Shown in pieces: positions 5,104 through 39,903 of a stretch of DNA of 64,000 nt. The position numbers and the translations under genes were made by a program. Numbering within the stretch: position 1 is the stretch's first letter; every line of letters starts with the position of its first letter. The notes beneath the pieces were generated by a model, which saw only the letters and a list, made by a program, of their open reading frames with translations, did not search any database and was not told the origin of the DNA. Origin of the DNA: Isoptericola halotolerans (lineage in GTDB: Bacteria; Actinomycetota; Actinomycetes; Actinomycetales; Cellulomonadaceae); the NCBI RefSeq assembly GCF_013149785.1, contig NZ_JABEZU010000003.1:1-64000 (forward strand), written 5' to 3'.

Positions 5104-5155
5104 GCCACGGCGTCCGCCGTCTGCCCGTCCCGAACCCCTGCTGGAAGTGACTGCC

Positions 5156-6220: not shown

Positions 6221-6267
6221 GACGCGGTCTCACCAGCGGGTGTTCCGGGCTTCCGGGTCCGAGCGGC

Positions 6268-8303: not shown

Positions 8304-8325
8304 GGCGGGGACCGTAGTCCCCGCC
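8304..8325. terminator. Perfect hairpin between fadD and the nuclease gene
   Basis: Inverted repeat GGCGGGGAC/GTCCCCGCC with a 4-base loop, ending right at the ATG of the nuclease gene. There is no U-run. It could weaken read-through from fadD or hide the translation start of the next gene. Confidence 0.5.
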
Positions 8326-8337
8326 ACCGACAGCAGG

Positions 8338-10146: not shown

Positions 10147-10275
10147 GCTGACTCCAGTGGCAGGGCTCGTCCGTGGCGGTCACGATACCGGGTCGCACGG
10201 GCGCCGCGGTCACGGGCTCGCATCAACTGGTGGACGGTGCGTCCGCGGTGGTCGCGGGTCGGTAGTCTGGTGCAC

Positions 10276-10295
10276 CGGCGCGCCCGGGCGCGCCG
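10276..10295. promoter_or_regulatory. 20-bp perfect palindrome between divergent fadD and glucokinase
   Basis: CGGCGCGCCCGGGCGCGCCG reads the same on both strands. It lies 130 bases before fadD and 64 bases before the glucokinase start, where a dimeric regulator could control both genes. In such GC-rich DNA a chance palindrome or a cruciform is also possible. Confidence 0.4.
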
Positions 10296-10358
10296 ACGTG
10301 TCGGTGCGACTGCCCCGTCGGCCCGACGTCCCCGAGATCGAACGTGAGGACTTGACGC

Positions 10359-11303: not shown

Positions 11304-11316
11304 CTCCGCCACCGCC

Positions 11317-11850
11317 TCAGACGACGGCACCGGGGTCGTGGTCCTCCGGGTCACGCCGGTGGGGCATCCGCCAGACGAGGACCGCGATCGCGGCGAGGAA
11401 CGACCCGCCACCGGCCGGTCCGACCCACCCCGGCACCTCGAGCTCCGGCAGCATGGCCCGCAGGATCACCGCCACGACCGTGAGCACCGGGACGGCCACG
11501 GCGACCGTCCAGGCGAGAGCGAGCAAGGGTTCGCGGTGCGCGACGAGGTCGGGGTCCGGGGGGACGAAGTGGTCCTCGGCCTCCTCGAGCGCCTCGACCT
11601 CGGGCGTCGTCGCCCAGTCGCGGGGGCCGGCAGGCTGCACGGGTGCGGGCGTCTCGCCGGGTGGCCGGGAGGCGTCGGCGGGTTCTGCGGGTTCCGGGCG
11701 CCCGGTGGGTTCGGTGGTCGTCCCGGCGTCCTCGACGACGAACCGGGACTGCTCCACGTCACCCAGACGTGCGACGATGTCGGACCAACGGGCGTCGACG
11801 TCGGCGTCCGGAAGGTCGTCCGGTTCCGCGTCCCGGTTCGGTGAGGCCAT
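11317..11850 (-). CDS. Putative membrane protein with acidic, proline-rich N-terminus
   Basis: Unknown function. The 177 residues split into a hydrophilic, Asp/Glu/Pro-rich stretch (1-110; MASPNRDAEPDDLPDADVDA) and two hydrophobic helices (LLALAWTVAVAVPVLTVVAVIL and GPAGGGSFLAAIAVLVW), with a short charged tail. It is probably anchored with the long N-terminus in the cytoplasm. It is leaderless: TAGAGT at 11857-11862 lies 6 nt before the ATG. Convergent with glucokinase (13 bases apart). Confidence 0.75.
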   Translation of the reverse strand: MASPNRDAEPDDLPDADVDARWSDIVARLGDVEQSRFVVEDAGTTTEPTGRPEPAEPADASRPPGETPAPVQPAGPRDWATTPEVEALEEAEDHFVPPDPDLVAHREPLLALAWTVAVAVPVLTVVAVILRAMLPELEVPGWVGPAGGGSFLAAIAVLVWRMPHRRDPEDHDPGAVV

Positions 11851-11892
11851 GGGACCACTCTATTGTCGTCGGCGAGGCCGCGAGGAGGACCG

Positions 11893-12663
11893 TTGTTCTA
11901 CTGGATCATGAAGCACGTGCTGGTCGGGCCGTGGCTCCGGCTCGCCTTCCGTCCCTGGACCAGGGGCGTCGAGCACGTGCCGGACTCCGGTGGTGCGATC
12001 CTGGCGAGCAACCACCTGGCCGTGATCGACTCGTTCGTGCTGCCCATCGTGCTGGAACGTCAGGTGAAGTTCCTCGGCAAGTCCGACTACTTCACCGGCC
12101 GTGGGCTCAAGGGCAGGCTCGTGGCCGGCTTCATGCGTGGTGTCGGCACGATCCCGGTGGACCGCTCCGGCGGCAAGGCCAGCGAGGCCGCGCTGCGTAC
12201 CGGGATGCGCGTGCTGGACGAGGGCGACCTCTTCGGCATCTACCCGGAGGGGACGCGGAGTCCCGACGGGCGCCTGTACCGGGGCAAGACGGGAGTCGCC
12301 CGTCTGGCGCTGGAGTCCGGCGCGCCGGTGGTCCCCGTGGCGATGGTGGGCACCGACGTCGCGCAGCCGCTGGGACGGGTGATCCCCAAGCCTCGGCCGA
12401 TCGGTGTCGTCTTCGGTGAGCCCCTGGACTTCAGCCGCTACCGGGGGATGGAGACCGACCGGTTCGTGCTGCGAGCCGTCGCCGACGAGATCATGTACGC
12501 CGTCCTGCGGCTCAGCGAGCAGGAGTACGTCGACGTGTACGCCGCCACCGCGAAGGTGCGGCTCGCGCAGGGACTGCCGGTGGACGCCCCGCCCGGCGCG
12601 GCGCGGCCGGCGGCGCCGGAGCCCCCGGCCGCGGAGCCCCCCGCGCAGGACCCCGCCGGCTGA
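11893..12663 (+). CDS. 1-acyl-sn-glycerol-3-phosphate acyltransferase (PlsC type)
   Basis: Phospholipid synthesis: adds the second acyl chain to lysophosphatidate at the membrane. HX4D motif is seen as NHLAVIDSF, then GVGTIPVDRSGG, and the acyl-acceptor motif YPEGTRSPDG. The Pro/Ala-rich tail (PPGAARPAAPEPPAAEPP) is probably disordered. The start is taken as TTG 11893 (LFYWIMKHVLVGP), as the family usually begins MFYW; GAGGAGG lies 4 nt before it. ATG 11908 is the alternative. Length 256 residues. Confidence 0.9.
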   Translation: MFYWIMKHVLVGPWLRLAFRPWTRGVEHVPDSGGAILASNHLAVIDSFVLPIVLERQVKFLGKSDYFTGRGLKGRLVAGFMRGVGTIPVDRSGGKASEAALRTGMRVLDEGDLFGIYPEGTRSPDGRLYRGKTGVARLALESGAPVVPVAMVGTDVAQPLGRVIPKPRPIGVVFGEPLDFSRYRGMETDRFVLRAVADEIMYAVLRLSEQEYVDVYAATAKVRLAQGLPVDAPPGAARPAAPEPPAAEPPAQDPAG

Positions 12664-12738
12664 GACGAGGTCACGCGCACGCGCGGGACCTCACTAGGAT
12701 GGGCACCGCTGTCCATCCCCAACGAGAGGTAGCCCCTC

Positions 12739-13965
12739 ATGTCGGTCCGTCGTGTCGCCCTGCTGACCGCCGGTGGTTTCGCACCGTGCCTGTCCTCCGC
12801 CGTCGGAGGTCTCATCGAGCGGTACACCGAGCTCGACCCGTCGATCGAGATCATCGCCTACCAGTACGGCTACCACGGCCTGCTGACCGGCACGAAGATC
12901 GAGATCGACGAGGAGGGCCGCCGTCAGGCGGGCGTCCTGCACCGGTTCGGCGGCTCGCCCATCGGCAACTCGCGCGTCAAGCTCACCAACGCCGCCGACT
13001 GCGTCAGGCGTGGGCTCGTCCGCGAGGGGCAGGACCCCCTGCACGTCGCCGCGGAGCAGCTCAAGGCCGACGGCGTGGACGTGCTGCACACCATCGGCGG
13101 CGACGACACGAACACCACCGCGGCGGACCTCGCGGCCTACCTCGCGGAGAACGACTACGACCTCACCGTGGTCGGCCTGCCGAAGACCATCGACAACGAC
13201 GTGGTGCCGATCCGCCAGTCGCTCGGGGCGTGGACCGCCGCCGAGGAGGCCGCCGGGTTCGCGGCGAACGTCATCGGCGAGCACCGCTCGGGCCCGCGCA
13301 TGCTGATCGTGCACGAGGTCATGGGCCGGCACTGCGGCTGGCTGACGGCGGCCGCCGCCGCGGAGTACCGCAAGTGGCTCGACGCCCAGGAGTTCGCCCC
13401 GGCGCTCGGCCTCACCCGTGAGCGCTGGGACGTGCACGCGGTGTTCCTGCCGGAGCTCGCGCTCGACATCGATGCCGAGGCCGAGCGTCTCAAGGCGATC
13501 ATGGACACCGAGGGCAACGTCAACATCTTCCTGTCCGAGGGTGCGGGCATGCACGAGATCGTCGCGCAGCTCGAGGCCGCGGGCGAGGAGGTCCAGCGCG
13601 ACCCGTTCGGGCACGTCAAGCTCGACACGATCAACCCGGGCCAGTGGTTCGCGAAGCAGTTCGCCGAGAAGCTGGGCGCCGAGAAGGTCATGGTCCAGAA
13701 GTCCGGCTACTACTCGCGCGCCGCGGCCGCGAACGCCGAGGACCTGCGCCTCATCAAGTCGATGACCGACCTCGCCGTCGAGTGCGCCCTGCGCGGCGAG
13801 GCCGGCGTGATCGGCCACGACGAGGAGGACGGTGACCGTCTCAAGGCGATCGCGTTCCCGCGCATCGCCGGTGGCAAGGCGTTCGACGTGCACACCGAGT
13901 GGTTCGGCGAGCTGCTGGCCGGCATCGGCCAGTCCCTCGTCCCGGCGCAGCCGGCCGAGCACTGA
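12739..13965 (+). CDS. pfp: Pyrophosphate-dependent 6-phosphofructokinase
   Basis: Phosphorylates fructose-6-phosphate using pyrophosphate, reversibly, in glycolysis. The PPi type is indicated by GGDDTNTTA (Asp where ATP enzymes have Gly) followed by the usual PKTIDNDV and MGRHCGWLTAAAA. Length 408 residues. The start MSVRRVALLTAGGFAPCLS has a GAGAGG site 10 nt upstream. It is followed 14 bases later by the DAHP synthase gene, so the two may be co-transcribed. Confidence 0.93.
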   Translation: MSVRRVALLTAGGFAPCLSSAVGGLIERYTELDPSIEIIAYQYGYHGLLTGTKIEIDEEGRRQAGVLHRFGGSPIGNSRVKLTNAADCVRRGLVREGQDPLHVAAEQLKADGVDVLHTIGGDDTNTTAADLAAYLAENDYDLTVVGLPKTIDNDVVPIRQSLGAWTAAEEAAGFAANVIGEHRSGPRMLIVHEVMGRHCGWLTAAAAAEYRKWLDAQEFAPALGLTRERWDVHAVFLPELALDIDAEAERLKAIMDTEGNVNIFLSEGAGMHEIVAQLEAAGEEVQRDPFGHVKLDTINPGQWFAKQFAEKLGAEKVMVQKSGYYSRAAAANAEDLRLIKSMTDLAVECALRGEAGVIGHDEEDGDRLKAIAFPRIAGGKAFDVHTEWFGELLAGIGQSLVPAQPAEH

Positions 13966-27452: not shown

Positions 27453-27467
27453 GCGAAACTTTGCGCT
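27453..27467. promoter_or_regulatory. Operator-like site of LacI-1 (autoregulation)
   Basis: GCGAAACTTTGCGCT is found here and, inverted and identical over all 15 bases, at 33600-33614 in the xylosidase/dehydratase control region. The core CGAAACTTT (27454-27462) starts where the -35 would be, 17 bases before the -10 TACGCT (27477-27482), so binding should block this promoter. Confidence 0.7.
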
Positions 27468-27488
27468 GCGACTCGCTACGCTGGGGCC

Positions 27489-28514
27489 ATGCCGAACCTC
27501 CGTGCCGACGGCGTCCCGCGCCCTACGCTCGCCCGCGTGGCCGCGGAGACCGACGTGTCCGTCTCGACGGTCTCGAAGGTGCTCAACGGCCGGGCCGGTG
27601 TGTCGTCGGCGACGCGTGAGCGAGTGGAGAAGGCGCTCCGGGAGCACGGCTACAGCCGGCGCAACCAGGTGCAGCCGTCGGCCCGGTTCATCGAGCTGGT
27701 CTTCAGTCGCATCGACAACAGCTGGGCTCTGGAGATGATCATCGGTGCCGAGAAGGTGGCCCGCGAGTCCGGCATGAGCGTCCTGCTGACCGAGTCCGGT
27801 GACCGGCACTCGCCGGGCCCGGAGTGGGTGTCGGGGGTGCTGGCCCGTCAGCCCGCGGGGGTGATCCTGATGTTCTCGGACCTGTCCCGCGAGGACCGCC
27901 GGATGCTGCGCACGCGAGACATCCCGTTCGTCGTCATCGATCCGGCCGGCGACCCACCGCCCGACGTGGCGTCGGTCGGCACCGCGAACTGGTCGGGCGG
28001 GTTCATGGCCACCCGGCACCTCATCGAGCTCGGGCACACCGAGATCGCCATCATCACGGGTCCCGACGACATGCTGTGCTCGACGGCTCGGCTGTCGGGC
28101 TACCGGGCTGCGATGGACGCCGCCGGGCTGAGCGTCCCTGCCGGGTTCGTCGTCTCGGGGGACTTCCATCATGAGGACGGTCTGGAGCGGGGAGGCGAGC
28201 TGCTCGACAGGGCACGGCGCCCCACGGCGATCTTCGCCGGCAGCGACCTGCAGGCGCTCGGCGTCTACGAGGCGGCCAGGGAGCGCGGTGTCGGGATCCC
28301 GGACGAGCTGTCCGTCGTCGGGTTCGACGACATCCGCCCCGCCGCGTGGGCGGGGCCTCCGCTGACGACGGTGCGTGCCCAGCTCACGGAGATGGCCGAG
28401 ACCGCGGCACGACTCGTCCTGCGGATGCGCCGGGAGGCCACGCCCGAGCGGATCGAGCTGGCCACCCGCATGGTCGTGCGGTCCAGCACCGCCGCTCCGC
28501 CGGCGGGGGGCTGA
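27489..28514 (+). CDS. LacI-family transcriptional regulator, likely regulator of the pentose cluster
   Basis: 341 residues. N-terminal HTH TLARVAAETDVSVSTVSKVLNGRAGVSSATRERVEKALREHGY with the LacI hinge region after it, then a periplasmic-binding-like sensor domain ending in ELSVVGFDDIRPAAWAGPPLTTVRAQL. Leaderless ATG behind TACGCT. The next gene (SMP-30 lactonase) begins 2 bases after the stop, so they form one unit. The identical 15-bp operator at its own promoter and at the xylosidase/dehydratase control region suggests it senses a pentose or pentonate and controls both. Confidence 0.93.
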   Translation: MPNLRADGVPRPTLARVAAETDVSVSTVSKVLNGRAGVSSATRERVEKALREHGYSRRNQVQPSARFIELVFSRIDNSWALEMIIGAEKVARESGMSVLLTESGDRHSPGPEWVSGVLARQPAGVILMFSDLSREDRRMLRTRDIPFVVIDPAGDPPPDVASVGTANWSGGFMATRHLIELGHTEIAIITGPDDMLCSTARLSGYRAAMDAAGLSVPAGFVVSGDFHHEDGLERGGELLDRARRPTAIFAGSDLQALGVYEAARERGVGIPDELSVVGFDDIRPAAWAGPPLTTVRAQLTEMAETAARLVLRMRREATPERIELATRMVVRSSTAAPPAGG

Positions 28515-28516
28515 CG

Positions 28517-29368
28517 ATGCGGGCAGAGCCGATCGGTGCGCCGTGCACCTTCCACGGTGAGGGTCCCTTCTGGGACGGCGTCAGGGACGAGCTGCTCGTC
28601 GTCGACATGCTCGCGGGGGACGTCGTCCGGTTCGACGGCGCGGGCGTTCCGACCCGCCGCCATGTCGGGGACGTGGCGGCGGTCGTGCGTGCGCGCCGCG
28701 GCGGCGGGTACGTCCTCGCCCTCGAGCGTGGGTTCGCGCTGGCCGACGCCGAGCTGTCGGTCACGGAAGAGATCGCCGTGCTCGAGGGTTCGGCGGTGCG
28801 GATGAACGACGGCGGCTGCGACCCCCAGGGGCGGTTCTACTGCGGCACCATGGCGTACGACGTGACCCCGGGTGCCGGTCGCCTGTACCGCTTGGACACC
28901 GACCGGACGGTCACCACCGTCCTGGACGGCGTGACGATCTCGAACGGGTTGCAGTGGAGCGTCGACGGCTCCCTGGCCTACTACAACGACACACCGACCG
29001 GGCGGGTCGACGTGTTCGACGTCGACCCCGACACCGGCGAGTTCTCCGGCCGTCGGCCGTTCGCCGTCGTCCCCGACGACGCCGGGAAGCCGGACGGCAT
29101 GGCCGTCGATGCCGAGGGCGGCGTCTGGATCGCCCTGTGGGAGGGCGGCCGGGTGCACCGGTACGACGCCGGGGGCATCCTGACCGAGGTCGTCGAGGTG
29201 GCGGCGAGCCGGACGACGGCGTGCACGTTCGGCGGGCCGGACGGGCGGACGCTGTTCGTCACGACGTCCCGCCTGGGCGTCGACGACGCCGCAGAGCCCT
29301 TGGCAGGTGCGGTCTTCGCCGTCGACACCGGCGTCGTGGGCGCGACGCAGCACGCGTACGCCGGCTGA
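28517..29368 (+). CDS. SMP-30/gluconolactonase-family lactonase, probable sugar lactonase
   Basis: 283 residues of a six-bladed beta-propeller lactonase. Features: CTFHGEGPFWDGVRDELLVVDMLAGDVVRF (metal Glu), RMNDGGCDPQGRFYCGTMAYD (metal Asn area), TISNGLQWSVDGSLAYYNDTPTGRV, and KPDGMAVDAEGGVWIALWEGGRV (metal Asp). These enzymes open sugar lactones with a divalent metal. In this cluster the expected substrate is a pentonolactone (xylonolactone or arabinonolactone). ATG 28517, two bases after the LacI-1 stop. Converges with the dehydrogenase gene. Confidence 0.9.
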   Translation: MRAEPIGAPCTFHGEGPFWDGVRDELLVVDMLAGDVVRFDGAGVPTRRHVGDVAAVVRARRGGGYVLALERGFALADAELSVTEEIAVLEGSAVRMNDGGCDPQGRFYCGTMAYDVTPGAGRLYRLDTDRTVTTVLDGVTISNGLQWSVDGSLAYYNDTPTGRVDVFDVDPDTGEFSGRRPFAVVPDDAGKPDGMAVDAEGGVWIALWEGGRVHRYDAGGILTEVVEVAASRTTACTFGGPDGRTLFVTTSRLGVDDAAEPLAGAVFAVDTGVVGATQHAYAG

Positions 29369-29381
29369 CGGCGACCGTGCC

Positions 29382-30851
29382 TCAGGAATGCTCCAGGATG
29401 CCGTCCACGCGTCGCGGAACATCCCACGGGTTCGCTTCCCGCAGCGGAGGAGGCAGCAGCCCGTCGGGCACCGACTGAAAGCTGACCGGCCGCAGGAACC
29501 GTTCGACGGCGGCTGTCCCGACGGACGTCGTCGACGCGGCCGTGGTCGCCGGGTAGGGGCCGCCGTGCTCCATCGCGTGGGTCACCGAGACTCCTGTCGG
29601 CCAGCCGTTCCACAGCACACGCCCCGCCCGGTCGGCGAGGACGTCGAGCAGCGAACCGACGAGACCGGTCTCCGTCTCCGTCCCCTGGACGGTCGCCGTG
29701 AGCTGGCCGTCGATCGCCGCCGCGGCCTCGACGAGCTGGCCGGGGTCGTCGTAGGAGACGATCAGCGCGGCCGGGCCGAAGCACTCCACCTCGAGCTGTT
29801 CGCGTGCCCGGGCGTGCTGGTCGTAGGTCGTCGCGAAGAGCGTGAGGGCGGGTTCGGCCGCCACGTCGGGGCTGCCCGCGAGCACCGCGACCTCGGGCCG
29901 TGCGGCGAGCTCGCCGACGGCGGTGGCGAAACCCTCATGGGTGCGTTCGTTCAGCATGGGCGCGCCCGGCAGCCCGGTCGCGGCCTCGGCGAGGCGCTCG
30001 GTGAGCCCTGACCCGGAGGGGACGAAGACGAGTCCCGGTTTGGTGCAGAACTGCCCTACGCCGAGCGTCGCGGACCCGACGAACCCGTCGGCGATCTCCC
30101 GGGCACGGTGCTCGGCGGCGCCGGGGGTCACGAAGACGGGGTTCACGCTGCCGAGCTCGCCGAAGAACGGGATCGGGTCGGGGCGGGCGGCCGCGAGGTC
30201 GAACAGGGCGCGGCCACCGGCCAGCGACCCGGTGAAGGCGCCTGCCTTGATCCGAGGGTCCGAGACGAGCCGACGGCCGTTCTCGGTCCCGACGACGAGG
30301 CCGAACAGTCCGTCGGGCGCCCCGGCCGCACGCAGGGCGTCGGTCACGACCTGCGACGTGAGACGCGAGAGCCGGAGGTGACCCGGGTGCGCCTTGACGA
30401 CGACGGGGCACCCGGCAGCCAGCGCCGACGCGGTGTCTCCGCCGGCCACCGAGAACGCGAACGGGAAGTTGCCGGCGGACCAGACGGCGACCGGGCCGAG
30501 CGGGCGCAGCATGCGCCGCAGGTCGGGCCGCGGTCCCATGCCCCATTCCGGGTCGGCGTGGTCGATCCGGACGCCGAGGTAGGAGCCCTCGCGCAGGACG
30601 TCCGCGAACAACCCGAGCTGGAACGTCGTGCGCACCAGCTCGCCGCGCAGCCGCGGTTCGGGAAGGTGGGTCTCCTCCTGCGCGACCTGGACGAGCGCGT
30701 CGGCGGCGGTCGTGAGCGCCTCGGCGACGGAAGCGAGCCACCCGGCCCGGGCGGCCGGTGTGGCGGTAGCCGCCTGCTCGGCGGCAGCCGCGGCAGCGGC
30801 GACGGTCTGCTCGAGCTCGGCGTCGGACGTCGGTACGGTCGGCTCGTTCAT
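29382..30851 (-). CDS. 2-oxoglutarate-semialdehyde (2,5-dioxovalerate) dehydrogenase
   Basis: 489-residue NAD(P)-dependent aldehyde dehydrogenase that would make 2-oxoglutarate from its semialdehyde, the last step of the non-phosphorylative pentose pathway. The subfamily is suggested by [36 protein letters not shown] near residue 135, [18 protein letters not shown], the catalytic Glu in [12 protein letters not shown], and the Cys in [16 protein letters not shown] 30851 overlaps the previous gene's stop by 4 bases (ATGA). The substrate is inferred from subfamily and neighbours. Confidence 0.88.
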
Positions 30852-31756
30852 CGTGTCTCCTGCGTCTCGGGGCGTCGTCCGACCACGACGACGCGGTTGG
30901 TCAAGGATCCGATCCCGTCGACCTCGATCCGCACGACGTCGCCCGCGGCGAGGGTGAAGTCCGCACCGGGGACGATGCCGGTCCCGGTGAGCAGCACGGC
31001 GCCGGCCGGGAGGTCGAGCGCGAGCACGAGCCACCCGGCGAGGGCGTCGAGGTCGCGGGCGAGCTCGGCCGTCGTCGTGGATCCGGTGAACACCTCCTCG
31101 TCGTCGCGCTCGACGGTGAGCCGGACGGCCCAGGGGCCCTCCGGCGCCGCCCAGACCGGGACGATCTGCGTCCCGAGCGCGCACGAGCGGGTGTAGACCT
31201 TGGCCTGCGGGAGGTACAGCGGGTTGTCGCCCTCGATGGATCGGCTGCTCATGTCGTTGCCGACGACGTAGCCGAACACGGCCCCGGCCCGGTTCACGAC
31301 GAGACCCAGCTCGGGTTCCGGGACGTCCCAGCCGGAGTCGGCCCGGATGCCGACGTCCTCGCCGTCGGTGACCACCCGGGCGGCCGTCGACTTGAAGAAC
31401 AGCTCGGGCCGCTCCGCGGTGTAGACGCGGTCGTAGATCGAGGGCTCGGTCGACTCCTCGGTGCGGCCGTCCCGGCTGCGTCGGTAGGTCACCCCGGCGG
31501 CCCAGACCTCCTGCTCGTCGACGGGTGGCAGCAGGCCGGCGCCGGGGTCGATCACGGAGCCTTCGGCCCGTGCGGTGTCCACCGCCCGGCGGGCCGCGTC
31601 GAGCGGCAGGGCGAGCAGCGCGCCGAGCGTCGTGCCCAGGCTCCGCATCCCGCCGTCGTCGGCCCGGACGGCCCACCGGGGCCCGTCGGGGGACTGGACC
31701 CGGACGATGGCCCCCGGGGTCCCGGCCTGCATCGATGACTGCTCAGTGTGACTCAC
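30848..31756 (-). CDS. FAH-fold 2-keto-3-deoxy-pentonate dehydratase
   Basis: 302 residues of the fumarylacetoacetate hydrolase family. Motifs: [87 protein letters not shown] (metal-binding Glu/Asp). The subfamily matches Caulobacter XylX-like 2-keto-3-deoxy-xylonate/arabinonate dehydratases, which make 2-oxoglutarate semialdehyde. GTG 31756, with GGAGG 6 nt upstream, overlaps the dehydratase gene by 14 bases. The pentose isomer is not decided by sequence. Confidence 0.86.
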
Positions 31757-33458
31757 GTGCTACCTCCGCACCGCTCGAGCCGACGAGGAAGTCGAGGTCC
31801 GCGCCGGTGTTCGCCTGCTGCACGTGGTCCACGTACAGCTTCTCCCATCCGCGATCAGGTGCCGCGAACCCGTCGGCCGTCGCCGCCGGGACGCGGCGTG
31901 AGCTCAGCTCGTCCTCGGGCACGAGGAGCTTGAGCCGCCGTGCCGGGACGTCGAGGAGGATCTCGTCACCGTCCCGGACGAGTGCGAGGGTCCCTCCGGC
32001 CGCGGCCTCCGGGGCGACGTGCAGGACCACGGTGCCGTACGCGGTCCCGCTCATCCGACCGTCGCAGATGCGCACCATGTCGCGGACGCCCTGGGCGAGG
32101 ATCTTCGGGGGCAGCGGGAGGTTGGCCACCTCGGGCATCCCCGGGTAGCCCTTCGGCCCGCATCCGCGCAGCACCAGGACGGACGTCGCGTCGACGTCGA
32201 GGTCCGGGTCGTCGATGCGTGCGGCGAAGTCCTCGACCGAGTCGAACACGACCGCGCGGCCGCGGTGGACGAGCAGCTCCGGGCTGGCGGCGGCGGGCTT
32301 GATGACGGCGCCGTCCCTGGCCAGGTTGCCGTGCAGGACGGCGATGCCCGCGTCGGGGGCGAGGGGTCGGGACCGCGGCGCGATGACGTCCTCGTCCCAC
32401 ACGGGGTTGGTCCCGAGGTAGGACGCCAGCGGGCGACCGGTGACGGTGATCGGGTCGTCGTCGAGCAGGTCGGCCACCTGGTCGAGGACGGCGAGCAGGC
32501 CGCCGGCGCGGAACAGGTCCTCCATGAGGTGCGCGCCCGCGGGCTGCAGGTTCACCAGGAGGGGCACGTCGGCACCGATCCGGTCGAAGTCCTCGAGCGT
32601 GAGCTCGATGCCGAGCCGACCGGCGATCGCCAGGAGGTGCACGACGGCGTTGGTCGAGCCGCCGACGGCGGCCAGGGCCACGATCGCGTTGGTGAACGAG
32701 CCGCGCGTGACGACCTGGCTGATCGTGCGTCCGGCCGCCACCTGCTCGACGGCGAGACGGCCGGAGGCGTGCGCCGCCTCCAGCAGGCGGCTGTCCGCGG
32801 CGGGTGTGCCGGCCAGCCCGGGGATCGTCGTGCCCAGGGCCTCGGCCATCACAGCCATCGTGGAGGCGGTGCCCATGGTGTTGCAGTGCCCGCGGCTGCG
32901 GATCATCGAGGACTCGGAGCGCAGGAACGTGGCCTGGTCGAGGCGGCCCGCCCGGACCTCCTCGCTCAGCTTCCACACCCCGGTCCCGCACCCGAGGGGC
33001 GAGCCGCGGAAGGTGCCGTTGAGCATGGGCCCGCCCGGAACGACGACGGCGGGCAGGTCCACCGAGGCGGCGGCCATGAGCAGCGCGGGGATGGTCTTGT
33101 CGCACCCGCCCAGCAGCACGAGGCCGTCGACGGGGTTGGCTCGGAACATCTCCTCCATGGACATGGCGGCCAGGTTGCGCCAGAGCATGGCCGTGGGTCG
33201 CACGAGGGTCTCGCCGAGGGACATGACGGGAAGGTCCAGGGGGATGCCGCCGGCCTCGTAGACACCGTTCTTCACGGACTGCGCGACCTCGTCGAGGTGT
33301 GCGTTGCAGGGCGTGAGGTCGGAGGCGGTGTTGGCGATGGCGATCTGCGGCCGGCCCTCGAACGCGCTGGAGGGTACGCCGCGGCGCATCCAGGCACGGT
33401 GCAGGTAGGCGTTGCGGTCGTCGCCCCCGTACCACTCGCTGCTGCGGAGCGTGGTCAA
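31743..33458 (-). CDS. IlvD/Edd-family sugar-acid dehydratase (probable pentonate dehydratase)
   Basis: 571 residues. Iron-sulfur ligands are likely the Cys of [23 protein letters not shown] and [13 protein letters not shown]; further IlvD/Edd signatures are [16 protein letters not shown] and [16 protein letters not shown]. The closest match is to pentonate dehydratases (xylonate, L-arabinonate) rather than dihydroxyacid dehydratase of valine synthesis, because it opens with [24 protein letters not shown] 33458 was chosen because GAAGGAG lies 8 nt upstream and the family begins near TTLRS. First gene of a three-gene operon. Substrate inferred. Confidence 0.88.
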
Positions 33459-33481
33459 GTCTTGGACTCCTTCGTCGAAGA

Positions 33482-33490
33482 AATGTTTCG
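33482..33490. promoter_or_regulatory. LacI-1 operator core O1
   Basis: CGAAACATT on the minus strand. It lies about 20-30 bases downstream of the predicted dehydratase transcription start, a usual position for a repressor. The wider stretch, read as GTCTCGCAACCGAAAC, nearly repeats GTCGCAAGCCGAAAC at O2. Confidence 0.6.
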
Positions 33491-33518
33491 GTTGCGAGAC
33501 CGAAGATTTTCTGGTGGC

Positions 33519-33547
33519 AGCGTAGGAATCGGAGGAGGCCCTGTCAA
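33519..33547 (-). promoter_or_regulatory. Promoter of the pentonate dehydratase operon
   Basis: On the minus strand, TTGACA (33547-33542) is the exact -35 consensus. A 17-bp spacer follows, then -10 TACGCT (33524-33519). Start near 33512, leader about 55 bases, with operator O1 inside the leader. Confidence 0.75.
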
Positions 33548-33550
33548 GGG

Positions 33551-33580
33551 TTGCCGCGGCCAGCCTCGGATGTCTAGCCT
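33551..33580 (+). promoter_or_regulatory. Promoter of the GH120 xylosidase gene
   Basis: TTGCCG (33551-33556), 18-bp spacer, TAGCCT (33575-33580). Start near 33587, inside operator pair O2/O3. The leader is about 70 bases and ends with AGGGGAG before the ATG. Confidence 0.6.
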
Positions 33581-33589
33581 GTCGCAAGC

Positions 33590-33613
33590 CGAAACGTTGA
33601 GCGCAAAGTTTCG
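33590..33613. promoter_or_regulatory. LacI-1 operator pair O2/O3
   Basis: CGAAACGTT (33590-33598) and, facing it, AAAGTTTCG (33605-33613, the reverse of CGAAACTTT). Together they form an inverted repeat with arms CGAAAC/GTTTCG 12 bases apart, just downstream of the xylosidase -10. The 15 bases from 33600 are identical to the LacI-1 own operator, inverted. Confidence 0.7.
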
Positions 33614-33658
33614 CTCTCGTCATCCGACCTCTGGCGTCGTCGCCTGAAGGGGAGCCCC

Positions 33659-35623
33659 ATGACTGTCTTGCATGTCGCCATCACCGGATCGGACTCCGCG
33701 GCGGGGAGCGCGACCGCTCCGCTGCGCACCGTCAACCGCGCGGCCGCGCTGGCTCGACCGGGAGACACCGTCCGTGTGCACGCCGGTGAGTACCGCGAGT
33801 GGGTCAAGCCCGCTCGCGGCGGGCTCAGCGACTCCCGTCGCATCACCTACGAGGCTGCCGAGGGCGAGCACGTGGTGATCAAGGGCTCGGAGCCGGTCAC
33901 GGACTGGAGCCGGGAGGACGGCGACGTCTGGCGTGCCGAGATCCCGAACGCGGTCTTCGGCGACTTCAACCCGTTCGACCAGGCGGTGGAGGGCGACTGG
34001 TTCGTACCACCGGCCGGCGGTGGGGTGCCGCACCTCGGTGAGGTGTACCTCGACGGGCGCAGCCTCTACGAGGTGCACGAGCTCGCCGCGGTGGCCGACC
34101 CGCCGCTGCGGACCGAGGACGTCGACGACTGGACCGGAGCTCCCCAGGCCATCGACGACCCGGAGCGGACGCGGTACGTCTGGTACGCGGAGGTCGGTCC
34201 GGAGGTGACCACCCTGTGGGCGAACTTCCAGGGAGCCGACCCTCGCGCACGCCTGGTCGAGGTCAACGTGCGCCGGTCGGTGTTCTACCCGACCGAGCAT
34301 CACCTCGACTTCATCACCGTACGGGGGTTCGAGCTGGCCCAGGCGGCGACGCCGTGGGCGCCGCCGACCGCCGACCAGCCAGGGCTGATCGGACCCAACT
34401 GGGCCAAGGGCTGGATCATCGAGGACAACGTCATCCACGACGCCAAGTGCTCGGCGATCTCGCTGGGCAAGGAGGCCTCGACCGGGCACAACTTCTCGTT
34501 CCACCGCGGTGACAAGCCGGGCTACCAGTACCAGCTCGAGTCCGTCTTCTCCGCTCGCCGGATCGGGTGGGACCGTGAGCACATCGGCTCCCACCTGGTA
34601 CGCCGGAACACGATCTTCGACTGTGGGCAGAACGGCGTCGTCGGTCACCTCGGTGCGGTGTTCTCGCGGATCGAGGACAACCACATCCACCACATCGGGA
34701 CCAAGCGGGAGTTCTACGGGTACGAGATCGGCGGCATCAAGCTGCACGCCGCGATCGACGTGCAGATCGTCCACAACCGCATCCATGACTGCACCATGGG
34801 CACCTGGCTCGACTGGCAGACCCAGGGGGCGCGCGTGTCCCGCAACGTCTTCTCCGCGAACACGCGCGACCTGTTCGTGGAGGTCAGCCACGGCCCCTAC
34901 GTGGTGGACAACAACATCCTGGCGTCGGGCATCGCCCTGGAGGTCTTCAGCCAGGGTGGCGCGTTCGTCAACAACCTCGTCGCCGGTGCCGTGCGACTCG
35001 AGGCCGTCCTCGACCGCGCCACGCCGTACCACCGGCCGCACAGCACCCAGGTCGCCGGGTTCGCCGTCGTCGACGGCGGGGACGATCGCTACCTCGGCAA
35101 CATCTTCGTCGGTGGTGATGCGCGGCCGGCCTACCTGCCGGGGAGCCCTGGCTACGGTCCGAGCTCACACGGCACGGCGGGGTACGACGGCTGCCCGCCC
35201 GACTTCGAGGCCTACCTGGCCAGGGTGAACGAGACGGTGGGCGACCACCGGCGGTTCTATGGCGTCCGCCAGGCCGCGTACATCCAGCACAACGTGTATG
35301 CCAACGGTGCTCGCTCCTACGAGGCGGAGAGGGGCGCCGTCGTCCTCGATGTCCCGGTGACCTTCGCCGTCGTCGACGAGGGGGAGGCGGTCTACCTCGA
35401 GTGCGATCTCCCCGAGCCGGTGGCCACCGGCTGGAGCGGGCCGGTGACGAGCTCCGACCTGCCGCGGGCGAGGATCGTCGACGCCGACTTCGAGGAGCCT
35501 GACGGATCGCCGCTCGTCATCGACGCGGACCTCCTCGGCGTCGCCCGGCAGCCCGGGCAGGCGTACCCGGCGGGACCGCTGGCGGAGATGCCCACCGGCG
35601 CCCGCCGGACACGGGTGTGGTGA
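33659..35623 (+). CDS. GH120 beta-xylosidase (parallel beta-helix), cytoplasmic
   Basis: 654 residues with no signal peptide, so it acts inside the cell on xylo-oligosaccharides. The sequence follows GH120 (XylC of Thermoanaerobacterium) closely: YREWVKPARGGLSD near the start, AATPWAPPTADQPGLIGPNW, LRTEDVDDWTG. By comparison with XylC (Asp382, Glu405), the nucleophile should be Asp385 (WLDW) and the acid/base Glu408 (FVEVSHGP). Right-handed beta-helix rungs fill the middle (NTIFDCGQNGVVGHLGAVFSRIEDNHIHH). Divergent from the pentonate dehydratase operon with operators O1-O3 between them. GH120 is a small family. Confidence 0.92.
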   Translation: MTVLHVAITGSDSAAGSATAPLRTVNRAAALARPGDTVRVHAGEYREWVKPARGGLSDSRRITYEAAEGEHVVIKGSEPVTDWSREDGDVWRAEIPNAVFGDFNPFDQAVEGDWFVPPAGGGVPHLGEVYLDGRSLYEVHELAAVADPPLRTEDVDDWTGAPQAIDDPERTRYVWYAEVGPEVTTLWANFQGADPRARLVEVNVRRSVFYPTEHHLDFITVRGFELAQAATPWAPPTADQPGLIGPNWAKGWIIEDNVIHDAKCSAISLGKEASTGHNFSFHRGDKPGYQYQLESVFSARRIGWDREHIGSHLVRRNTIFDCGQNGVVGHLGAVFSRIEDNHIHHIGTKREFYGYEIGGIKLHAAIDVQIVHNRIHDCTMGTWLDWQTQGARVSRNVFSANTRDLFVEVSHGPYVVDNNILASGIALEVFSQGGAFVNNLVAGAVRLEAVLDRATPYHRPHSTQVAGFAVVDGGDDRYLGNIFVGGDARPAYLPGSPGYGPSSHGTAGYDGCPPDFEAYLARVNETVGDHRRFYGVRQAAYIQHNVYANGARSYEAERGAVVLDVPVTFAVVDEGEAVYLECDLPEPVATGWSGPVTSSDLPRARIVDADFEEPDGSPLVIDADLLGVARQPGQAYPAGPLAEMPTGARRTRVW

Positions 35624-35665: not shown

Positions 35666-35723
35666 TTGACACGCCTGGGGCAGGACACCATTCTGGGTAG
35701 TGCAGGGGTTACGACGTTGTAAC
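35666..35723 (+). promoter_or_regulatory. Promoter and LacI-type operator of the tandem esterase gene
   Basis: TTGACA (35666-35671), 17-bp spacer, CATTCT (35689-35694). Downstream at 35708-35723 lies GTTACGACGTTGTAAC, a 16-bp palindrome with one mismatched pair and a central CG, as LacI-type operators usually have. The core ACGTTGT also occurs at 35638-35644. It is probably read by LacI-2 (38-39 kb). Confidence 0.6.
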
Positions 35724-35809
35724 AGATGGTCCCGTCGTGGTCCCTCGGCCGGGCACCGACATCGGTCCTCGTGCTCGACGGAATCGAACTGCGAACGAGA
35801 GGCACGTCG

Positions 35810-38059
35810 ATGGTGATGGAATCTCAGGCGAGGGTCGCGGCCCCGCCGAAGCGGCGAGGGCGAAGAGTCCTGGCGATCGTGGCTGCCGCCGGCGTCGGTG
35901 CGTCGGCGCTGGTCGCCGCGCAACCAGCGTCTGCGGACCCCGTGAGCCAGGACCCCTGGGTCGGTGAGGTACCGGACAACCCGGTCTCCGACGTCTACCG
36001 GTTCACGGTGCCGTCGGAGGCCGTGACCGAGACGACCGGGATCCAGGACGGGCTCGTCGCCGTGCAGGGGAACTTCGGCCCGGGCAAGGCGTGGACCGAC
36101 CTCAACATGGGGACCAGCGGATCGAACCTGACCGCCACGTACGGGCCGCTCGAGCCCGGCCTGTACTACTACCAGTACGTCGTGCGTCCCGCGGCGGACC
36201 AGGACGCGGTCGCCTTCCGCAACCCTGACGCCCCGCAGGAGGTGACGTCGGAGCCCACGTACAGCACGCTGTTCGTCCCCGGACCAGGAGCGGAGTGGCT
36301 CGCGGACGTCGCCGACGGCGGTGAGCTCACGCCGCTCGACTACGGAAAGGGTCCGAAGCGGTCCGGCGAGGCCCTGGTGTGGACGCCGCCGGGCTATGAC
36401 GAGGACCGCGCCGATCCCTACCCGGTGCTGTACCTGCTCGCCGACGAGGCGCAGAGCCACCGCGAATGGGTCGAGCTCGGCCGCCTGGGCCAGATCATGG
36501 ACAACCTCACGCTCGCCGGCGACGCCGAGCCGATGGTCGTCGTCATGGGGGACGCAGACTCCGTCGGGCCCGGCGGTGCGGGCCGGGAGCTGTTCCACGC
36601 GGCGGAGCGCGGCCTCAACGTCTCGAAGGACGGGGAGGCACGCGCGATCGCCGGAGTCGGCCGTGGTGCGCAGCGGGCGCTGGAGGCGCTCGTCCACAAG
36701 CCGCGCGACTTCGCCCACGTCGGCTCGTTCTCGGGCGGCCTCGACAAGCGGATTCCCCGGGGCAAGGTCAAGCAGATCAACGAGTCGACCGACATGGTCC
36801 GCCTCTACGCGGGCAACGTCACCGACCCCGGGTACGACGCCACGGTAGCCCTGGCCGAGACCCTGACGGGTGCGGGAGTCGACTTCCAGTCCGACGGGTC
36901 GGACCCAGCGACCGGTGGCACGTGGGACACGGGACAGAAGAACCTGCGCGACTTCGCCCAGCGCCTCTTCCGGGACGTCGCGGACGAGGGCCCGAGCGAG
37001 GGTCACCTACCGTTCGTCCAGCACGAGCTGCCGGCACCGGGGACGACGCCGACACCGTGGATCGACACCAACGGCGTCGTCACCTTCGAGGTGGGGCCCG
37101 AGTTCGCCGACGCGAACAACGTCACCGTCTGGGGCAACTTCGGGCGGTCCGGGAGCTGGCCGCGCACCCCCATGGAGCGACAGGACGACGGGTCCTGGCG
37201 CCTGTCGTTGGCCCTCGAGGGCGGCTCGTACTACTACAAGTTCGTGGTCGACGGGGTCGACCACAAGGACGGGGGCAACCCGACGAGCGTGTTCTCCGAG
37301 CCGGCGTGGAGCACCTTCGCCGTCGAGGGCGACACCCTGCGCGGCCGGTACACGGCCGAGGTCCCGGCCGAGGCGCGCGGTGAGGTCGACGTCATGAGCT
37401 ACCCGAGCACCGCAGGTGGTGGCCAGGAGCGTTCGGCGTACGTCTGGACGCCCCCGGGCCACGACCCCGCCCGCGCCGAGCCCTGGCCGGTGCTCTACCT
37501 GCAGCACGGCGGCGGACAGACCTGGACCGACTGGCTCGAGGTGGGCTACATCGATCGCATCCTCGACAACCACCACCGGCAGGGCACCATCGAGCCGATG
37601 GTGGTCGTCATGGCCAACGGCAACGGTGTGGACTTCCCCACGGAGATCACGACGCGGATCGCGCCGGCCGCCGAGGAGCAGTACAACGTCAGCCCCGAGG
37701 GCGACAGGCGTGCGCTCGCGGGACTGTCGATGGGCTCGGGCCACACGCTCAGCACCCTGTGGGCGCACCCGGGCGAGTTCGGCTACATCGGGGCCATGTC
37801 GGCGTTCGGCGGCCCGCCCGCCGGCGCGGACGTCGAGGCCATCAACGAGGGGACGAAGCTGCTGCGGGTGTACACCGGTGACGTCCAGGACTTCACCTAT
37901 GGTGCGACGCTGCAGCTCGTGTCCGCGATGGAGAACCGTGGTGTGAACCACGAGTTCGCCCCCGTCATCCCCGGGCCGCACAGCTGGGACGTCTGGCAGA
38001 AGTCGGTCATCGACCTCTTGCCGCGCCTGTTCACGGAGGACGTGGACGCGCAGGACTGA
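35810..38059 (+). CDS. Secreted protein with two CE1-like esterase domains, the first degenerate
   Basis: 749 residues. Signal peptide: KRRGRRVLAIVAAAGVGASALVAA with ASA cleavage near residue 42. Two similar halves follow, each a small beta domain then an alpha/beta esterase domain (acetylxylan or feruloyl esterase-like). The second has the nucleophile Ser640 in GLSMGSG, a candidate Asp in YTGDVQD, and the His of GPHSWDVW, so it should be active. In the first half the matching places are Gly284 (GVGRGAQ), Asn (YAGNVTD) and no His (GGTWDTG), so it is probably a non-catalytic binding or regulatory part. GAGAGG lies 7 nt before the ATG. Confidence 0.88.
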   Translation: MVMESQARVAAPPKRRGRRVLAIVAAAGVGASALVAAQPASADPVSQDPWVGEVPDNPVSDVYRFTVPSEAVTETTGIQDGLVAVQGNFGPGKAWTDLNMGTSGSNLTATYGPLEPGLYYYQYVVRPAADQDAVAFRNPDAPQEVTSEPTYSTLFVPGPGAEWLADVADGGELTPLDYGKGPKRSGEALVWTPPGYDEDRADPYPVLYLLADEAQSHREWVELGRLGQIMDNLTLAGDAEPMVVVMGDADSVGPGGAGRELFHAAERGLNVSKDGEARAIAGVGRGAQRALEALVHKPRDFAHVGSFSGGLDKRIPRGKVKQINESTDMVRLYAGNVTDPGYDATVALAETLTGAGVDFQSDGSDPATGGTWDTGQKNLRDFAQRLFRDVADEGPSEGHLPFVQHELPAPGTTPTPWIDTNGVVTFEVGPEFADANNVTVWGNFGRSGSWPRTPMERQDDGSWRLSLALEGGSYYYKFVVDGVDHKDGGNPTSVFSEPAWSTFAVEGDTLRGRYTAEVPAEARGEVDVMSYPSTAGGGQERSAYVWTPPGHDPARAEPWPVLYLQHGGGQTWTDWLEVGYIDRILDNHHRQGTIEPMVVVMANGNGVDFPTEITTRIAPAAEEQYNVSPEGDRRALAGLSMGSGHTLSTLWAHPGEFGYIGAMSAFGGPPAGADVEAINEGTKLLRVYTGDVQDFTYGATLQLVSAMENRGVNHEFAPVIPGPHSWDVWQKSVIDLLPRLFTEDVDAQD

Positions 38060-38123: not shown

Positions 38124-39161
38124 TCAGGCCGGCGCCGAGAACCCCGTGGACTCCCGGCGGACGACCCGGAACTCGGGCTTGACCGTTCGCGGTGGCGCGG
38201 TGCTCCGGTTCGGGCCGATGCGCTCGAGGAGAAGCGCGACCGCCTGGTCCGCGATCTGTTCCCGTCCGGCGTCGACCGTCGTCATCGACGGCGTGGAGTA
38301 CTGCGACTCCTCGATGTTGTCGAAGCCGATCACGGCGACGTCCTGCGGTATGGACACCCCGGACGCGCTGAGCGTGCGGATGGCCCCGAGGCCGAGCGTG
38401 TCGTTCAGGGCGAAGACGGCGTCGAACGCGATGCGCTCGTCGAGGAGCGCCCTCGTGGCGGCCGCGCCCGCCGCCCGGCTCCAGTGCTCCGCCGGTCGGA
38501 TCAGCTGCGGGTCGACGGACAGGCCGGCGTTCTTCAACGCTTCGCGGTAACCACGGGTGCGCAGGGTCGCAGAGCTGAGGTCGCCGGCTCGCTCGGCCTC
38601 AGGATCGGCTCCGACGACGGCGATCCGGCGCCGCCCGCTGTCGATGAGGTGGTCCACGGCTGCGCGAGCCGAGCTGACGTTGTGCATCGTGACGTGATCC
38701 GTCGGCCCGCCGAAGATGCGTTCGCCGAGCAGCACCACGGGGATGTTCGCGTCGAGCGCGGCCGCGTCCGACTGCCCGAGGCTGATCGGGTTGAACAGCA
38801 GCCCGTCGATGAAGTGTGGCCTGGACGTGCCTGCGACGGCGAGCAGCTCTGCCTCGCGCTCGCCGCCGGTCTGCTCGACGAGGACGCTGACGCCGCGCGC
38901 TGCGGCTGCTCGGATCACCGCGTCGGCGAGCTCGGCGAAGTAGTTCTCGCGCAGGGCCGGCACGGCAAGACCGATCACTCCTGTGCGTCCGGAACGCAGC
39001 CCTCGTGCTGAGAGGTTCGGGCGGTACCCGACCTCCTCGATCGCCTGCAGCACGCGCTCTCGCGTGGCGGGGCGCACGTGCGGGTGGTCGTGCAGCACGT
39101 TGGAGACCGTCTTGAGCGAGACTCCAGCGGCGCTCGCGACGTCGCGGATCGTCGAACCCAC
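38124..39161 (-). CDS. LacI-family transcriptional regulator (second copy)
   Basis: 345 residues. HTH: STIRDVASAAGVSLKTVSNVLHDHPHVRPATRERVLQAIEEVGYRPN, then a sensor domain with VPALRENYFAELADAVIRAAAARGVSVLVEQTGG and VAVIGFDNIEESQYSTPSMTTVDAGREQ. GTG 39161 (VGSTIRD) was chosen: GGGAGG lies 6 nt upstream. TACAGT at 39194-39189 may be its -10. It is probably the regulator of the convergent esterase through the palindrome at 35708. No matching palindrome was seen at its own start. Confidence 0.93.
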   Translation of the reverse strand: MGSTIRDVASAAGVSLKTVSNVLHDHPHVRPATRERVLQAIEEVGYRPNLSARGLRSGRTGVIGLAVPALRENYFAELADAVIRAAAARGVSVLVEQTGGEREAELLAVAGTSRPHFIDGLLFNPISLGQSDAAALDANIPVVLLGERIFGGPTDHVTMHNVSSARAAVDHLIDSGRRRIAVVGADPEAERAGDLSSATLRTRGYREALKNAGLSVDPQLIRPAEHWSRAAGAAATRALLDERIAFDAVFALNDTLGLGAIRTLSASGVSIPQDVAVIGFDNIEESQYSTPSMTTVDAGREQIADQAVALLLERIGPNRSTAPPRTVKPEFRVVRRESTGFSAPA

Positions 39162-39246
39162 CGCTGACCTCCCCCTCCTGGTCTGCGTACTGTAGCCCGT
39201 CACTCGTCGCACGGAATGATCTGTCGACACAGGAGTTGTACCGACC

Positions 39247-39903
39247 GTGACTTCTCTCGACACCCGCCTCCAGATCGAGGTCTGGTCCGATGTCCTGTGC
39301 CCCTGGTGCTACATCGGCGACGCACGCCTCGAGGCCGCCATCAAGGACTCCCCGCAGGCCGACCGCATCGACATCCGGATCCGCACCTTCCAGCTGGACC
39401 CCGAGTTCCCCGCCGTGCCGACGCCCGTCGTCGACTACCTCGCAGCCAAGAAGGGCCTGCCGGTCGAGCAGGCCGAGCAGATGGAGGCCCAGGTCGCCGA
39501 GCTCGCCAGGGCCGAGGGGCTCGCGTACGAGCCGAACCACCTCGTCCAGAACACGCTGGACATGCTGCGCCTGGTGCACCTCGGCAACGACCACGGGGTG
39601 GGCTGGCAGTACATGACGGCGATGCAGACGGCCCTGTTCAGCGGGGACCCCGAGGCTTTCGTCCCCGAGACCCTGGTCCGCCTCGGTGCGGACCTGGGCA
39701 TCCCCGAGGCCGAGGTGCGCGACGTCCTCGCGAGCGACCGCTACGCCGACGCCGTCCGCGCCGAGCACGAGGAGGCGATCGCGCTGGGCGCTCGCGGCGT
39801 GCCGTTCACGGTGCTCGGAAGGCGGCTCGGGATCCCTGGCGCCGTCCCGGTCGAGAGCTACCGCCAGGCGATCGACCAGGCCTGGGAGCACGTCGATGCC
39901 TGA
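39247..39903 (+). CDS. DsbA-family FrnE-like oxidoreductase
   Basis: 218 residues, thioredoxin fold with the active site CPWC (SDVLCPWCYIG) near residue 19 and the family helix HLVQNTLDMLRLVHLG. No signal peptide, so cytoplasmic, as FrnE proteins (disulfide oxidoreductase/isomerase) usually are. ALGARGVPFTVLGRRLGIPGA near the C-terminus holds the cis-Pro loop (GVPF). GTG 39247 has GGAG 12 nt upstream, a poor distance. It overlaps a short reading frame by 8 bases. Confidence 0.9.
   Translation: MTSLDTRLQIEVWSDVLCPWCYIGDARLEAAIKDSPQADRIDIRIRTFQLDPEFPAVPTPVVDYLAAKKGLPVEQAEQMEAQVAELARAEGLAYEPNHLVQNTLDMLRLVHLGNDHGVGWQYMTAMQTALFSGDPEAFVPETLVRLGADLGIPEAEVRDVLASDRYADAVRAEHEEAIALGARGVPFTVLGRRLGIPGAVPVESYRQAIDQAWEHVDA

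Follow-up and report, generated by a model that had tools for sequence, protein, structure and literature searches.

The window analysed here is a 64,000-nucleotide stretch of Isoptericola halotolerans DNA (contig NZ_JABEZU010000003.1, positions 1 to 64,000), part of a 3.97-Mb host genome that we call G000. At 27453-35623 it carries a cluster that an earlier note had read as a non-phosphorylative, Weimberg-type pentose pathway joined to a GH120 xylosidase under one LacI-family repressor. Genes were assigned from the listing of open reading frames, from profile searches against Pfam and NCBIfam, and from sequence comparison with the Protein Data Bank (PDB). All six genes named in that note are present within these 8 kb as open reading frames with Pfam matches (Table 1). 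They fall into three transcription units: lacI1 and the SMP-30 gene follow each other on the plus strand with a gap of 2 nt; the ilvD, FAH and aldehyde dehydrogenase (ALDH) genes overlap by 14 nt and 4 nt on the minus strand, in a manner resembling a coupled operon; and the GH120 gene is divergent from ilvD. The first two units converge, with 13 nt between them. The start codon of ilvD is probably TTG, judging from a comparison with the related loci L038 and L039. The gene order is kept in a second Isoptericola genome, G011, with proteins 81-93% identical, and the block is therefore no chance neighbourhood.

Table 1. Genes and operator-like sites of the cluster and its extension (window positions).
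Feature	Position	Strand	Evidence or remark
LacI1 operator-like palindrome GCGAAACTTTGCGC	27453-27466		22 nt 5' of the lacI1 start; exact match to GCGMAAMKTTKCGC
LacI1, LacI-family repressor	27489-28514	+	Pfam LacI 1.8e-13, Peripla_BP_3
SMP-30/gluconolactonase-type (pentono)lactonase	28517-29368	+	Pfam SGL 1.3e-71
ALDH, proposed 2-oxoglutarate semialdehyde dehydrogenase	29382-30851	-	Pfam Aldedh 1.2e-35
FAH-fold 2-keto-3-deoxypentonate dehydratase, KdaD type (predicted)	30848-31756	-	Pfam FAA_hydrolase 1.6e-20
IlvD/Edd sugar-acid dehydratase, proposed pentonate dehydratase	31743 to ~33452	-	ILVD_EDD_N 1.3e-100
Weaker operator-like site CCGAAACGTTGAGC	33589-33602		2 mismatches to the pattern
LacI1 operator-like site GCGCAAAGTTTCGC	33601-33614		between divergent ilvD and GH120; exact reverse complement of GCGAAACTTTGCGC
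GH120 beta-xylosidase (predicted)	33659-35623	+	PF21258 insertion domain 1.4e-41, 142 bits, cut-off 27
Two-domain CE1/feruloyl-esterase-like protein with CBM-like part, secreted-looking	35726-38059	+	Pfam Esterase, AMPK1_CBM
LacI2, second LacI-family regulator	38124-39263	-	Pfam LacI; 93% to the G011 copy

Judged by sequence, the window appears to encode the last four steps of a Weimberg-type route. The lactonase has regucalcin (3g4e) as its best PDB match, and its SGL domain is that of a predicted pentonolactonase. The pentonate dehydratase of such a route can be of the IlvD/Edd or the enolase type; here it would be the IlvD/Edd protein, which falls in the sugar-acid branch. It scores best with 8ej0 (720 bits), then with 5j83 (679) and 9evv (676), with 5oyn (403) well behind; we take 8ej0 to be PuDHT of P. 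ureilyticus and 5oyn to be the Caulobacter dehydratase. 9evv is labelled an L-arabinonate dehydratase, and the L-arabinonate dehydratase of R. leguminosarum scores 679 bits with IlvD. Among the NCBIfam models PRK06131 reaches 819 bits (cut-off 539), and the L-arabinonate dehydratase model reaches 745 bits, below its cut-off of 882. Similarity alone was rejected as a way to settle the sugar, since 8ej0 and an enzyme whose name refers to L-arabinonate both lie near IlvD. With KdaD (2q18) as its best PDB match at E 1.2e-47 and the next match at 1.5e-16, the FAH protein is a predicted 2-keto-3-deoxypentonate (KDP) dehydratase. The ALDH is closest to 1eyy (385 bits) and 3v4c (379 bits, named an NADP+ ALDH); its matches to the KGSADH-type NCBIfam models are weak and far below cut-off, and no model gives its exact substrate. 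Residues 4-654 of the GH120 protein align with XylC of T. saccharolyticum (3VST; 823 bits, E 1.9e-246), and the fold with its insertion domain together with the conserved catalytic Asp and Glu, which we take to be D382 and E405, place it in family GH120, where it is predicted to be a beta-xylosidase. By eye, no signal peptide was seen at its N-terminus, and it looks intracellular. In this family the Asp is the nucleophile and the Glu the acid/base (PMC6887791). The family assignments of the five enzymes support the Weimberg-type reading.

The control of the cluster can be followed from the operator-like sites. The pattern GCGMAAMKTTKCGC was derived from the sites in the window and one in G011, and so its match to the window sites cannot count as independent evidence. 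A better indication is the recurrence of these 14 bases, inverted, at two promoters of one block, with a similar site in G011. In G011, GCGCAACGTTTCGC lies before the lacI1 ortholog (89% identical) and related sites lie before ilvD. Exact matches to the pattern occur at two places in the whole host genome, both in this cluster, and in none of 60 windows simulated with equal dinucleotide content. With one mismatch allowed, the pattern and its reversed control find 9 and 3 places in the host genome and 5 and 3 in G011. With two allowed, the window holds 4 matches against 2.56 expected, and CCGAAACGTTGAGC may be a chance match because 24 of 100 shuffles reach 4. At this level the pattern was not found in five related loci (L039, L043, L044, L047 and L048); L044 and L047 have sites that match 11 of 14 positions of a fuller palindrome before their GH3 genes. 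The lacI1 and ilvD/GH120 promoters share a palindromic operator-like site, as the promoters of a LacI regulon would, and since these are the only exact matches in the genome, the three transcription units are probably all under a single LacI. The single LacI control put forward in the earlier note is thereby supported, on a pattern derived from the sites themselves.

Relatives of the cassette were sought by scanning genomes with an alignment built from three FAH proteins, and 80 loci were kept of 82 relatives. The window proteins were compared with all 80 and the neighbours were read closely in nine; in one of the comparisons, matches to the LacI2, AKR, RIBD and DSBA queries below 50% identity were omitted. 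The simple gene caller had overlooked a GH5 gene in L039 as well as short-chain dehydrogenase/reductase (SDR) genes, whole in L044 and L047 and as a terminal fragment in L048, so other loci may hide more. A close IlvD (70-93%) accompanies FAH at six of the 80 loci, L042, L043, L044, L047, L048 and L116; at the others the IlvD match is 31-35% or none is in view. The argument about the pentose rests on these six together with L129 (57%) and L040. L116, from an uncultured Isoptericola (G011), has the whole block including GH120. L042, from Antribacter gilvus and read as L039 in genome G019, has a GH51 gene (PF06964) and a GH5 gene (PF00150) before ilvD, with the GH5 between the two, as well as LacI and ABC permease genes; GH120 was not found at this locus. 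L043, from a Microbacteriaceae metagenome-assembled genome and cut at its start, has the cassette and a LacI1 ortholog (66%) beside xylA (480 bits, cut-off 447) and xylB (398, cut-off 380), with GguA/GguB importer genes above cut-off and a ChvE-like binding protein below it. In L044 the neighbour is a GH3 enzyme of the xylosidase/arabinosidase model NF052329 (1156 bits, cut-off 1050), and L047 apparently has the same by eye. In L040 (genome G010, same genus; 9099-13649) GH51 stands directly upstream of ilvD and the esterase is present; its GH51 is 86% identical to that of L039, and its IlvD 84% to that of the window. No KdaD-type FAH, ALDH or SMP-30 match was found in the 37 kb read there; a longer FAH protein, 35% identical, adjoins ilvD in convergent orientation. 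L041 (genome G006), with an FAH match at 37%, was set aside, its neighbourhood being without the cassette.

A dehydrogenase for the first step is suggested by some of these relatives. An SDR gene directly follows the SMP-30 gene in L044 (8764-10313) and L047 (3353-4899), and in L048 (6265-7230), at a contig edge, only the C-terminal 37 residues of a XylB-like SDR are present; they end where the SMP-30 gene starts and are 76% identical to the SDR of L129. The cassette of these Microbacteriaceae relatives therefore seems to begin with a dehydrogenase, which is likely to be the pentose dehydrogenase missing from the window; in Isoptericola, lacI1 occupies the place beside SMP-30 that the SDR holds there. 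L129 (genome G095) has more distant IlvD, FAH (62%) and SMP-30 (47%) proteins, and the best NCBIfam model for its SDR is XylB, D-xylose 1-dehydrogenase (329 bits, below the cut-off of 400). In the host genome, five SDR places match the L129 SDR at 33-39%, and no clear ortholog of the SDRs of L044, L047, L122 or L129 was found among the SDR stretches fetched from G000, G011 and G019, where the best matches reach 38-42%, other G000 SDRs being unsearched. Far from the cluster, a stretch of the window at 62401-63129 codes for an SDR-like protein that shares 29-35% identity with the SDRs of L129, L044 and L047. Fourteen Gfo/Idh/MocA places were fetched from the host genome, and none of the 10 scanned with models passed a xylose-dehydrogenase cut-off. 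One of this family, G000:C1:545685-546752, has dimeric dihydrodiol dehydrogenase (2o48) as its best PDB match and xylose dehydrogenase Gfo6 as its best NCBIfam model (114 bits, cut-off 350). Since it is present in 18 of 18 genomes tested it is not specific to the cluster, and this core protein is a candidate only. Dimeric dihydrodiol dehydrogenase of pig liver is a xylose dehydrogenase (PMC2228372), and endogenous IolG of C. glutamicum can oxidise xylose (PMC6475665). The genome search that the earlier note had proposed has thus yielded one Gfo/Idh/MocA candidate, with no match above a xylose-dehydrogenase cut-off among the 10 scanned and no clear SDR ortholog among the stretches fetched.

Nine GH120 loci were examined: that of the window, L037 (a paralog in the same genome), L038, L122, L124, L125, L126, L190 and L191. 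A LacI gene accompanies GH120 in eight of them, all except L122, and an SMP-30 gene in four (window, L038, L122 and L190). No importer genes are seen in the blocks of the window and L038, and the other seven loci have ABC importer genes, mostly recognised by eye. The host's second GH120 (L037 8980-10968; G000:C4:465997-467964) is about 70% identical to the first, with a LacI of its own and an ABC solute-binding protein confirmed by PF01547, which suggests that import could be supplied from there. Of the earlier note's proposal that xylo-oligosaccharides are imported and cut inside the cell, the importer is not encoded in the block, and this second locus offers a solute-binding protein. In L190 (genome G003, 3892-11136) GH120 is seen with LacI, importer genes and SMP-30; the dehydratases are not in the stretch read. 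On a plasmid of Streptomyces sp. NBC_00841 (L122, 4482-15563; a collection record without annotation) an enolase-superfamily protein, FAH, ALDH, SMP-30, GH120 and an SDR stand in one run.

The cluster is patchily distributed. An FAH protein above 75% identity occurs in three of 58 related genomes and GH120 in five genomes of a chosen set of 18, the host included in both; GH120 in four of 393 genomes of the class, again with the host, agrees with the earlier description of the pairing as uncommon. FAH (E <= 1e-35) is found in 51 of the 393 and together with GH120 in two, the host and G095; because the two genes sit on different contigs in G095, no statistical link between them is drawn. Both xylA and araA are present in all 17 genomes tested (16 of the 18 of the genus, the less complete G007 and G015 being omitted, and Antribacter). 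With both genes in the host, the cluster is an accessory to the isomerase routes. A literature search, with most subscription papers outside its scope, found no paper on a GH120-Weimberg pairing. Neither the route nor any of the enzyme families is new; what is rare is their combination with GH120 under a single LacI, which is unusual also in being without the customary first enzyme.

Taken together, we give a probability of about 0.72 to the reading that the cluster encodes an accessory oxidative pentose pathway of Weimberg type, controlled by LacI and coupled to the breakdown of xylo-oligosaccharides. In the mechanism that we infer, LacI1 would be bound at the operators before lacI1 and between ilvD and GH120 until it is released by an inducer, which is probably xylose, a xylo-oligosaccharide or an intermediate of the pathway. 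GH120 would then cleave imported xylo-oligosaccharides inside the cell, and part of the xylose would be converted to xylonolactone by a dehydrogenase encoded elsewhere. The SMP-30 protein would open the lactone, IlvD/Edd would form 2-keto-3-deoxy-D-xylonate, FAH would convert this to 2-oxoglutarate semialdehyde, and the ALDH would oxidise the latter to 2-oxoglutarate. D-xylose is the best-supported pentose, by reason of the class of the FAH enzyme and of the relatives' neighbourhoods (xylA/xylB, GH3 and the XylB-like SDR end). D-KDP dehydratases are annotated to the FAH family and L-KDP dehydratases to the DHDPS family, each described as specific (PMC7374468); a DHDPS-family enzyme, as in an AraA-E type route, is not in the block, which has FAH instead, the rest of the genome being unsearched for it. 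Among D-ribonate, D-arabinonate, D-xylonate and D-lyxonate, PuDHT uses D-xylonate only, and RlArDHT too uses D-xylonate (PMC9314677). The newly found SDRs beside SMP-30 make the D-xylose reading stronger and a pathway with no dehydrogenase step less credible. The likely fuel named in the earlier note, xylo-oligosaccharides, can be narrowed in favour of D-xylose, with L-arabinose kept in view.

Several observations weigh against this reading. Neither a pentose 1-dehydrogenase, whose absence the earlier note had rightly pointed out, nor a sugar importer was recognised in the block, and the genome-wide operator search picked out no dehydrogenase, importer or other further gene. Antribacter and both Isoptericola loci have no visible counterpart of the SDR that accompanies SMP-30 in L044, L047 and L048, and of the SDR stretches fetched from the host, those nearest to the SDRs of L044/L047 and L129 are only 38-42% identical. 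The L044 and L047 SDRs themselves best match unnamed SDR models, below cut-off. No NCBIfam model gives the ALDH or the FAH protein a name above cut-off. In L043 the importer scores best as a multiple-monosaccharide type and is not xylose-specific. FAH and ALDH stand beside GH120 in only three of the nine loci (window, L038 and L122), and the host has xylA, so that its use of xylose does not depend on the cluster. With one mismatch, the operator pattern finds five places in G019 and its reversed control six, and the excess in G011 is slight too. As to the sugar, the first activity measurements on KDP dehydratases suggested some activity on the other stereoisomer (PMC7374468), and in L040 and Antribacter the orthologous IlvD lies downstream of GH51, pointing to arabinose or arabinoxylan.

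In an alternative that we regard as unlikely but worth keeping in mind, the cluster serves mainly L-arabinose from arabinoxylan, or both pentoses through promiscuous enzymes, and GH120 trims the leftover arabinoxylo-oligosaccharides. IlvD is nearly as close to the R. leguminosarum L-arabinonate dehydratase as to 8ej0 (679 and 720 bits), GH51 precedes the orthologous ilvD directly in G010 and with GH5 between in Antribacter, the L044 GH3 is of the xylosidase/arabinosidase type, and the block includes a ferulic-acid-esterase-like protein; in Haloferax, moreover, the pentonolactonase and pentonate dehydratase are promiscuous in the breakdown of D-xylose and L-arabinose (PMC8551123). The earlier note's reservation about L-arabinose is therefore sound: two related clusters carry a GH51 arabinofuranosidase, without GH120. 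However, FAH-type KDP dehydratases are described as D-specific (PMC7374468), the characterised GH120 enzymes are xylosidases (PMC6887791), the cassette with a LacI1 ortholog adjoins xylA/xylB in L043, and that of L048 adjoins the end of a XylB-like dehydrogenase. An assignment as a pathway for sugar acids in general (D-gluconate, D-galactonate, D-fuconate or other aldonates) with GH120 adjacent by chance is very improbable. It can draw on the use of D-gluconate by this class of IlvD, which PuDHT converts faster than D-xylonate (PMC9314677), but C5 acids are what one would expect of an FAH dehydratase with a semialdehyde dehydrogenase after it, the operator-like sites tie GH120, ilvD and lacI1 together, and the pentose context recurs in relatives.

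The lack of a dehydrogenase can also be taken at face value. Xylonolactone or xylonate would then arrive as the oxidised end of oligosaccharides cut oxidatively outside the cell, and GH120 would free it. We speculate, at low odds, that the cluster of Isoptericola and Antribacter is a route for such C1-oxidised xylo-oligosaccharides, in which GH120 trims the xylonate- or xylonolactone-ended oligomers, the lactonase and dehydratases carry the oxidised end to 2-oxoglutarate, and XylA handles ordinary xylose. Such a role would account for the retention of the lactonase without the dehydrogenase that adjoins it in the Microbacteriaceae relatives, and for its recurrence beside GH120. Consistent with it, the units with the LacI1 pattern include a lactonase and no dehydrogenase, a lactonase accompanies GH120 with none of the other pathway genes in the G003 stretch read, and an inspection of the cassette's surroundings in Antribacter and at both Isoptericola loci, partly by eye, showed no sugar dehydrogenase. 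Yet the relatives have a dehydrogenase beside the lactonase (an SDR in L044 and L047, a XylB-like end in L048), L129 also has a XylB-like SDR, and the step can come from an enzyme encoded elsewhere, as with IolG in C. glutamicum (PMC6475665). A pathway with no dehydrogenase step is accordingly thought quite improbable.

The esterase and LacI2 are members of the same conserved block. The esterase matches the ferulic acid esterase 8bbp, probably starts near 35810, and is conserved in G011, G019 and G010. In the three orthologs compared, its first domain lacks the catalytic Ser (GVG/GIG instead of GxSxG) and its second retains GLS[ML]G, which would make it a conserved pseudo-enzyme domain joined to an active-looking one. 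Upstream of its gene lies the palindrome GTTACGACGTTGTAAC (35708-35723), a possible LacI2 operator; in L038, GTTACAACGTCGTAAT lies on the other strand before the esterase copy. The block is flanked by a RibD_C-domain gene (Pfam) on one side, with a gyrase/topoisomerase B-type gene farther out (by eye), and by a DsbA-like gene (by eye) on the other. The nearest oxidoreductase seen, an aldo/keto reductase (PF00248, 40506-41921), lies beside a divergent HxlR-like regulator (by eye) and is arranged separately from the block.

These findings connect a small xylosidase family that has received little study with the carbon-efficient oxidation of pentoses in actinobacteria, where one conserved oxidative cassette is surrounded by different glycosidases (GH120, GH51 or GH3). 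They also supply parts, namely a LacI sensor together with two defined operator-like sites, and dehydratases that could serve to make 2-oxoglutarate from the sugars of xylan; the missing dehydrogenase raises the question of which molecule truly enters the pathway.

Among known systems, xylXABCD of Caulobacter crescentus, the Weimberg pathway, has the same kinds of lactonase, IlvD/Edd and FAH enzyme, with a KGSA dehydrogenase where the window has the proposed one, and ends in 2-oxoglutarate as the window route would. In comparison, the window cluster is without the xylose dehydrogenase and adds LacI control and GH120; its IlvD is closer to 8ej0 and 5j83 than to 5oyn, presumably the Caulobacter enzyme, and its FAH protein is closest to the archaeal KdaD among solved structures. 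The oxidative pentose pathways of archaea (KdaD of Sulfolobus; Haloferax) share this KdaD-type FAH and a possible promiscuity towards several pentoses, whereas the window cluster is bacterial, with an IlvD/Edd dehydratase, GH120 and LacI. The pen operon of R. jostii RHA1 (PMC11998424) is likewise actinobacterial and associated with xylose, with an FAH-family protein and an aldehyde dehydrogenase; unlike the window cluster it includes an SDR and an ABC importer, and GH120 is unmentioned in the part of that source available. The Streptomyces plasmid locus L122 has the same GH120, SMP-30, ALDH and FAH families and, by eye, importer genes, but differs in its GntR-like regulator (by eye), in the enolase-superfamily protein that replaces IlvD, and in a GH120 that has an apparent Tat signal (by eye), suggesting secretion, and is only 38% identical to that of the window. 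Finally, XylC of T. saccharolyticum is homologous to the window GH120 over its full length, with the catalytic Asp and Glu aligned; in contrast to XylC, the GH120 of the window lies with the genes of a proposed oxidative pentose pathway and beside an operator-like site of LacI type.

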